Below are positions 32,082-32,947 of a stretch of 64,000 bases of DNA, piece after piece. The stretch comes from Xanthocytophaga agilis (GTDB lineage Bacteria > Bacteroidota > Bacteroidia > Cytophagales > 172606-1), in the NCBI RefSeq assembly GCF_030068605.1, contig NZ_JASJOU010000009.1:248001-312000 (forward strand). Reading direction: 5' to 3'. The position numbers and the translations under genes were made by a program. Numbering within the stretch: the first letter of the stretch is position 1; each line of letters opens with the position of its first letter. Below the pieces are notes generated by a model. That model was not told the origin of the DNA, ran no database searches, and saw only the letters and a list, made by a program, of their open reading frames with translations.

Positions 32082-32110
32082 AAAAAACACCAGTCCTACT
32101 GAAACTGGCG
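32082..32110 (-). terminator. Terminator of the minus-strand non-coding RNA
   Basis: Read on the minus strand: CGCCAGT, loop, ACTGGTG, then TTTTTT (32087-32082). It lies about 55 bases beyond the tRNA-like 3' end and faces away from the plus-strand isomerase terminator, so it defines the end of a separate minus-strand transcript. Confidence 0.7.
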
Positions 32111-32363
32111 TTTAATACTTCATCAACAAACTAAAAACCAATTGCTTATGTTTAGAAAGCTAGCTGTAGGAGAAGGGGTCGAACCTCCACGAGGTAGTTA
32201 GCGACAGAGCAAAGTTTGGTGGTCAATCCCAGTCATCCTAATTTTGACATCAGGACGGCTTTACCCTGCGTTTATCCCAGATTCCTCACCCCCGAGACAG
32301 GAGGGCACGGCTGCCAATTTCGTCACCCTACAGTATAAATCCACTGCCTTCTTGTGCTTTGGA
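32082..32363 (-). ncRNA. Stand-alone non-coding RNA with terminal tRNA-like fold and about 100-nt insertion
   Basis: No protein frame fits. On the minus strand, 32332 to 32164 folds like a tRNA. The acceptor TGTAGGG pairs with TCCTACA (32332-32326 with 32171-32165), with an extra C-G pair outside. T occurs at the position-8 equivalent. A D-arm ACG...CGT encloses AAATTGG. A 5-bp stem carries a 7-nt loop CTGTCTC (32289-32305), with T33 and anticodon-like GTC. The T-arm is GGAGG-TTCGACC-CCTTC (32188-32172). A 100-nt segment (32288-32189) sits where the variable loop belongs. No CCA is encoded. The RNA has its own promoter and terminator, giving a transcript of about 280 nt. It does not look like tmRNA, SRP RNA, RNase P or 6S. 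It may belong to a family I do not recognise. Confidence 0.6.
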
Positions 32364-32368
32364 CAATA

Positions 32369-32400
32369 CAAAAGTAATACACGCTCCAATTCTTTGCAAA
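32369..32400 (-). promoter_or_regulatory. Promoter of the non-coding RNA
   Basis: On the minus strand, TTTG at 32400-32397 (-33) and TACTTTTG at 32376-32369 (-7, TAnnTTTG) are separated by 20 bases. This matches the primary Bacteroidota consensus in both boxes and spacing. The expected start is near 32363, about 30 bases before the tRNA-like 5' end. Confidence 0.7.
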
Positions 32401-32485: not shown

Positions 32486-32947
32486 ATGCCCCAAAATTCA
32501 GAAATTGACAATATAGATCTTAAGATCTTATCTCTTCTTATGCAAGATGCTACTATGCCCTACACAGAAATAGGCGAAAAAGTTTTTGTTTCAGGAAGTA
32601 CTGTTCATGTGCGAATGCGTAAGCTGGAACAAATGGGAGTAGTAAAAGGCTCACAACTTATTGTTGATTATGCCAAACTTGGCTGGGACATAAATGCCTT
32701 CCTTGGCATCTATCTTGAAAAGAGCTCCAATTATGTTGCTGCTGCTCAGGAACTAGAGAAAATACCAGAAATATTAAGCATTCATTATACAACTGGTATC
32801 TATAGCCTCTTTGCGCGTATTATTTGTAGAGACACGCAGCATCTTCGTGAAGTACTTAGTGATAAAATTCAAAAAGTACCTGGTATTCAACGTACAGAAA
32901 CTTTTATATCCTTGGAAGAACGGTTTAGCAGACCCATTACATTTTAA
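32486..32947 (+). CDS. Lrp/AsnC-family transcription regulator
   Basis: 153 residues. The N-terminal helix-turn-helix is typical: IDLKILSLLMQDATMPYTEIGEKVFVSGSTVHVRMRKLEQMGVV. The C-terminal RAM ligand-binding domain is seen in FLGIYLEKSSN, ILSIHYTTGIYSLFARI and VPGIQRTETFISLEE. It would bind DNA as an octamer or dimer and respond to amino acids. It is transcribed away from the non-coding RNA, so both promoters share the 32364-32485 spacer and could influence each other. It stands alone, with no amino-acid gene adjacent. Confidence 0.92.
   Translation: MPQNSEIDNIDLKILSLLMQDATMPYTEIGEKVFVSGSTVHVRMRKLEQMGVVKGSQLIVDYAKLGWDINAFLGIYLEKSSNYVAAAQELEKIPEILSIHYTTGIYSLFARIICRDTQHLREVLSDKIQKVPGIQRTETFISLEERFSRPITF

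Follow-up and report, generated by a model that had tools for sequence, protein, structure and literature searches.

A widespread tRNA-like RNA of the Bacteroidota is probably a non-decoding carrier for the synthesis of asparagine

The stretch of DNA analysed here (the window, 64,000 nt; Xanthocytophaga agilis assembly GCF_030068605.1, contig NZ_JASJOU010000009.1, positions 248,001-312,000 of the forward strand) carries on its minus strand a tRNA-like RNA gene, whose product is probably a dedicated tRNA that does not decode and serves AspRS and GatCAB in making asparagine. An AspRS identity set, a base pair that allows amidation by GatCAB, co-occurrence with gatB and a divergently oriented AsnC-type gene together point to tRNA-dependent asparagine synthesis. 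We also lean, less firmly, towards the fuller proposal that, in a whole branch of the Bacteroidota, asparagine arises on a tRNA that is tailored to this task and does not decode; such a tRNA would unite tRNA-Asp identity with the amidation signal of tRNA-Asn and use its large variable arm as a scaffold. Judged by comparative sequence analysis, the RNA is a real and widespread family that is absent from Rfam.

The gene has its own expression signals (Table 1). A first-pass annotation of the same DNA had proposed a promoter and a hairpin terminator on the minus strand, enclosing an acceptor stem, a D-arm with GG, a five-base-pair anticodon stem with the loop CTGTCTC, a TTCGACC T-loop and a 100-nt insertion in the variable region, and each of these elements was found in place. 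The promoter is, by its motif, of the Bacteroidetes type, and the full motif lies at most 110 nt upstream of 68 of the 186 family copies as compared with 0.2% of shuffled sequences. The presumed 5' leader folds into a weak hairpin, and C74 corresponds to position 32163, CCA not being encoded. Directly before the terminator, the 3' trailer contains a 25-nt element, TTGGTTTTTAGTTTGTTGATGAAGT (32141-32117, minus strand), which also occurs downstream of the RNA at four other loci and is 100% identical over 25 nt in one genome found by blastn (G023).

Table 1. Features of the RNA locus and its divergent neighbour, in window coordinates.
Feature	Position	Strand	Details or basis
Promoter	32369..32400	-	-33 TTTG at 32400-32397, 20-nt spacer, -7 TACTTTTG at 32376-32369
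Presumed 5' leader, putative RNase P substrate	32333..32363	-	Position inferred; start site from the -7 box
tRNA-like body, T1 (32332) to G73 (32164)	32164..32332	-	Covariance model, alignments, covariation
Acceptor 5' strand UGUAGGG	32326..32332	-	7 bp with 32171-32165; U1 and G2 invariant
U8, G9, 3-bp D-stem, Leu-type D-loop (A14, A15, G18, G19, A20a)	32306..32325	-
Anticodon arm CCCUC-CUGUCUC-GGGGG; anticodon GUC, U37, C38	32289..32305	-
Variable arm, 100 nt	32189..32288	-	Comparative alignment, covariation
T-arm GGAGG-UUCGACC-CCUUC	32172..32188	-	Alignment, covariation
Acceptor 3' strand, discriminator G73 and C74	32163..32171	-	G73 67/67, C74 67/67
Intrinsic terminator of the RNA gene	32085..32113	-	Hairpin, fold z = -5.1
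AsnC-type regulator	32486..32947	+	Divergent from the RNA, 153-nt gap; phmmer, NCBIfam

No known Rfam family matched the RNA. Nothing in the window reached a gathering score, the tmRNA and tRNA families included, and at permissive thresholds the best sub-threshold matches lay in other parts of the region and looked like chance; ARAGORN likewise returned no match at the window RNA. Given that the single-sequence fold is unremarkable (z = -1.25), the case for the RNA rests on comparative evidence. By blastn, the RNA was present in 25 of 39 related genomes, and within a genome collection a conserved DNA pattern of its anticodon arm matched over 120 contigs, whose sources include Cytophagales, Saprospiraceae and Chitinophagaceae. 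About 190 family copies were gathered in total. From the pattern matches 151 distinct copies were excised, 73 of which were aligned; changes on both sides were found in 20 of 29 pairs, every helix of the cloverleaf covaried, and the covariation score was 0.382 against 0.170 after shuffling, a value that none of 500 shuffles reached. Both-side changes filled 260 cells compared with 71 in the shuffles, and slid controls collapsed. A further set, made up of 67 distinct copies that were obtained with blastn or the covariance model but without the pattern and referred to here as the unbiased set, gave a score of 0.444 versus 0.182 (0/500).

The structure recovered in this way is that of a class II tRNA, with a 7-bp acceptor, a D-arm, a 5-bp anticodon arm, a variable arm and a 5-bp T-arm, anticodon and T loops of 7 nt each, and a 7/5 acceptor/T branch in all copies. 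U1-A72 and G2-C71 are present in all 67 copies of the unbiased set and the remaining five acceptor pairs covary, as does the T-arm; the anticodon stem covaries in distant family members. The tertiary partners U8/A14, A15/U48, G18/U55, G19/C56 and U54/A58 are all invariant in the unbiased set, the Levitt pair (15-48) thus being A15-U48. The first-pass annotation had described a Leu-type D-arm combined with an Asp-type anticodon, which agrees with the covariance model: the window copy scores 140.5 bits, and the next-best matches after the family are ordinary tRNA-Leu genes with 48-62 bits. Copies also stand in tandem arrays of two to five at four places, with five at a single locus of Flammeovirga pacifica; some arms within the arrays are nearly identical, others wholly different. 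Within the sensitivity of blastn, phages and plasmids yielded no copy. Readings as a group I intron or as a tmRNA were considered and rejected, as neither an intron core nor a tag frame was seen, the arm is as short as 39 nt and is absent from one copy, and the core pairs of the tRNA are intact.

The positions that the family holds fixed are those read by AspRS, while the decoding positions are relaxed. Aspartate identity in bacteria resides in G73, G34, U35, C36 and C38 (PMC9976931); within the unbiased set U35, C36, C38 and G73 each occur in 67/67 copies and G34 in 64/67. For GatCAB, U1-A72 is the pair that allows Asp-tRNA to be amidated, whereas G1-C72 and U20a block the reaction (PMC9976931); the permissive role of U1-A72 is described in PMC4206432 as well. 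The family combines its constant U1-A72 with the absence of both G1-C72 and U20a, position 20a being A in 67/67 copies, as are A14 and A15, and G18 and G19 are equally constant. The ordinary tRNA-Asp of the window genome has G1-C72, U20a and A37. Two features of the sequence count against charging with Asp: U1-A72 replaces the G1-C72 preferred by bacterial AspRS, and G10 is mostly missing (present in 11/67 copies). A decoding tRNA requires U33 and a purine at position 37. In the unbiased set, U33 is kept in 51/67 copies and absent from 16/67, and position 37 is U in 62, C in 3 and G in 2, hence a pyrimidine in 65/67 and never A. With the tRNA fold and the tertiary pairs preserved, the earlier reading of the RNA as tRNA-like and yet not decoding is borne out. 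Two contigs of the window genome also contain clusters of aberrant tRNA genes, and a class I 'tRNA-Asp(gtc)' with the loop CTGTCTC at L202:1607-1682 (minus strand) has U37, too.

The variable arm ranges from 39 to 130 nt across the family. Its base is a covarying 4-bp stem (GNNG/CNNC; 32287-32284/32194-32191 in the window), followed by a conserved internal loop with GGGAUAAA (GGAUAAA) opposite CUAAC and then by an apical domain. The window arm belongs to type A, in which the apical domain (32270-32202) consists of an 8-bp stem and a GGRUUGACCAC motif; this stem covaries, is paired in 34/34 copies at several covarying positions, and is capped by an invariant U-G and the GGGUUGACCAC motif. In type B copies the apical hairpins are arbitrary. 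A repeated CTGGGAT reported earlier in the arm is real, but its two copies fall in two different conserved elements. In genome G018 the whole variable arm is gone, leaving an RNA of 77 nt (L213:2338-2414, minus strand) with a wholly different anticodon stem (CUAGC/GCUAG) and the loop CUAUCUC (AUC), which ARAGORN calls tRNA-Asp(atc). Because the arm was lost there while the loop was kept, the constancy seems to lie in the loop and the acceptor end, with the arm as an accessory. The same genome has AsnA and lacks GlnRS, and no AsnC gene was found in the fetched flank of its armless copy.

A link to gatB was predicted from the RNA sequence before gatB was searched for. In the RNA's own class, gatB was present in 35/35 genomes with the RNA and in 1/20 without it; the single exception (G079) lacks GlnRS, so that GatCAB is needed there for Gln-tRNA. 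Restricted to genomes of this class that have GlnRS, the numbers were 27/27 and 0/19. A class-wide sample of 217 genomes had gatB in 40/40 genomes with the RNA, and among its 82 genomes with GlnRS the split was 22/22 versus 8/60 (Fisher p = 1e-13, the genomes being phylogenetically non-independent). Another tally had gatB in 37/37 genomes with the RNA. All eight exceptions in the sample of 217 belong to one family, f80, which has GlnRS and a divergent GatB (about 350 bits, as compared with at least 475 for the GatBs of genomes with the RNA); a search of these genomes for the RNA with a laxer filter gave only matches at the level of tRNA-Leu, so f80 remains an exception, where GatCAB perhaps has another use. 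Outside the class, four genomes with GlnRS have GatB without the RNA. Joint gain or loss of the RNA and gatB is seen inside three families (f23, f24 and f70) and tends to speak against shared ancestry as the sole cause. Eight genomes of the Cytophagales, G018 among them, have no GlnRS, and GatCAB is therefore required for their Gln-tRNA. The presence of the RNA thus tracks gatB where GlnRS makes GatCAB dispensable for Gln-tRNA.

AsnRS was found in 65/65 genomes, which means that free asparagine is needed. Among the class genomes, an E. coli-type AsnB was found in 0/35 with the RNA and in 15/20 without it; this type was assigned by frame length and the shape of the match, and the two assignments that were checked scored 953-958 bits at a cut-off of 499. 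AsnA was present in 4/35 genomes with the RNA (one below cut-off) and in 3/20 without it. Genomes with the RNA keep AsnB paralogs of about 600-690 aa that are positive for TIGR01536 and, by this similarity, might be makers of asparagine; the window genome has three AsnB-like proteins, which fall short of the cut-off of the AsnB model with scores of 222-333 and pass the broader TIGR01536.

The genomic neighbourhood gives a further indication. The product of the divergent gene next to the window RNA matches E. coli AsnC (2cg4) with a phmmer E-value of 1.5e-32, ahead of all other solved structures by ten orders of magnitude, and AsnC is also its best NCBIfam model (1e-43), although the score of 148.8 bits does not reach the curated cut-off of 227. 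An AsnC-type gene flanks 109 copies at 92/139 loci, divergent every time, and the arrangement recurs outside the class in copies from two genomes. In E. coli, asnC and asnA diverge across a gap of 151 bp, and in G090, a relative without the RNA, an AsnC-type gene diverges from asnB with a gap of 118 bp (L268:2051-4190). In the window the gap between AsnC and the RNA is 153 bp, and the RNA thus sits where these two genomes have a gene for an asparagine synthetase. Control of the SUF operon was also weighed, because sufB follows AsnC in 32 loci, and was set aside since the constant neighbour is AsnC, not sufB.

We propose that the RNA would be transcribed from its conserved promoter, trimmed by RNase P and supplied with CCA, that AspRS would charge it with Asp, and that GatCAB would amidate this Asp to Asn on the RNA. 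Release of Asn, the weakest step of the scheme, would then provide the asparagine supply of the cell. If an RNA with a GUC anticodon delivered Asn, Asp codons would be translated as Asn, so the RNA must avoid the ribosome, and the loss of decoding features may be explained by this danger; such an exclusion would fit with U37, the loosened constraint on position 33 and the size of the arm. The arm probably docks AspRS and GatCAB or a releasing enzyme: it may hold the two together, by analogy with tRNA-Asn in the Thermus transamidosome, or recruit a hydrolase. AsnC probably sets the expression of the RNA gene according to the supply of asparagine.

The first-pass annotation had taken the RNA for a tRNA mimic, a regulator or an RNase P substrate. 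The non-decoding character stood up, but the AspRS identity, the GatCAB pair, the co-occurrence with gatB and the AsnC gene had been missed. A regulatory mimic, charged or uncharged, that is no biosynthetic intermediate but reports Asp/Asn status, for example as a decoy or sensor for AsnC, AspRS or GatCAB, would be in keeping with the AsnC neighbourhood, the multiple tandem copies with divergent arms and the elaborate conserved internal loop of the arm; since regulation alone leaves unexplained why the RNA occurs only together with gatB and takes the place of AsnB-type enzymes, and why the determinants of AspRS and GatCAB are invariant together, we regard it as unlikely. The features of a non-decoding aminoacyl donor would equally suit a carrier of Asp or Asn for some other tRNA-dependent step, such as the modification of lipids, peptides or proteins, which has a precedent in the non-translational tRNA-Gly of cell-wall synthesis. 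Our survey of neighbourhoods, however, found no transferase gene conserved adjoining the RNA, and a role in asparagine supply is indicated both by the AsnC gene and by the missing AsnB, which makes such a carrier quite improbable.

Charging with serine by SerRS might be suspected from G73, G2-C71 and the large variable arm, all among the bacterial Ser determinants (PMC9976931). Yet the arm varies from one copy to the next and was lost in G018 with the GUC/AUC-type loop kept, U35, C36 and C38 are not used in SerRS identity, and a link to GatCAB would be lacking, so that we give this reading hardly any credence. It is just as difficult to believe in a tRNA pseudogene, or in a decoding tRNA-Asp that is supernumerary or degenerate: the GUC anticodon and the ARAGORN call on the armless copy would agree with a tRNA-Asp, but the genome has normal tRNA-Asp genes, the family does not keep U33 and never has A37, and a pseudogene is excluded by the conservation of the RNA and its promoter and by the covariation.

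Our literature search, which covered open-access papers, turned up no mention of an RNA of this kind. To our knowledge, no tRNA has been described that combines Asp and Asn identity and, without decoding, is dedicated to the manufacture of an amino acid; if the proposal is right, the RNA would be the first one known to us whose task is to make an amino acid and not to decode it, and tRNA-dependent asparagine synthesis is known to us only on a decoding tRNA-Asn. Irrespective of function, the RNA is a missed and widespread family for Rfam and tRNA finders to add. If asparagine is indeed made on it, a tRNA would have turned into a metabolic cofactor that does the work of a protein enzyme, at a locus under AsnC control, and the family would provide a natural test case for the exclusion of a toxic misacylated tRNA from the ribosome. 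Furthermore, the supply of Asn without a non-discriminating AspRS would be explained in bacteria with AsnRS, GlnRS and GatCAB that lack a clear asparagine synthetase; Bacteroidetes have been listed among such genera, with the use of tRNA-Asn being assumed (PMC4206432).

Among known RNAs, the closest in identity is bacterial tRNA-Asp, which shares G34, U35, C36, C38, G73 and G2-C71; the RNA differs from it by U1-A72 instead of G1-C72, A20a instead of U20a, U37 instead of A37, the mostly missing G10, the unfixed U33, the class II body and the giant arm. Bacterial tRNA-Leu, likewise of class II, resembles it in the D-arm and the overall body, whereas G73 in place of A73, the Asp-type anticodon loop and an arm with a conserved internal loop and apical domain set it apart. 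Staphylococcal cell-wall synthesis uses a non-proteinogenic tRNA-Gly, so that dedicated metabolic tRNAs have a precedent; this tRNA, too, serves metabolism and stays away from the ribosome, but its amino acid, pathway and architecture are different and it is not homologous in any tested sense. Allo-tRNAs, selC* tRNA-Cys and tRNA-Sec-like RNAs (PMC7609411) are also unusual bacterial class II molecules with enlarged variable arms. Their acceptor branches, however, have 12 or 13 bp (8/4, 9/3), and the 8/4, 8/5 or 9/3 acceptor-T branch that marks allo-tRNAs and tRNA-Sec-like RNAs does not occur in the present family, whose branch is the usual 7/5 and whose arm is much longer. The nearest functional counterpart is the system of Deinococcus, Thermus and Bdellovibrio, in which ND-AspRS and GatCAB make Asn on tRNA-Asn in a transamidosome (PMC4206432). 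In both cases a tRNA with U1-A72 and G73 is loaded with Asp by AspRS and amidated by GatCAB, as we infer for the RNA described here, and in both AsnRS is encoded as well and most genomes have no Asn synthetase of the E. coli type. In contrast to that system, the carrier here is not tRNA-Asn and has an Asp (GUC) anticodon with which it is apparently unable to decode; an ordinary discriminating AspRS could therefore suffice, and the Asn would have to come off the RNA.
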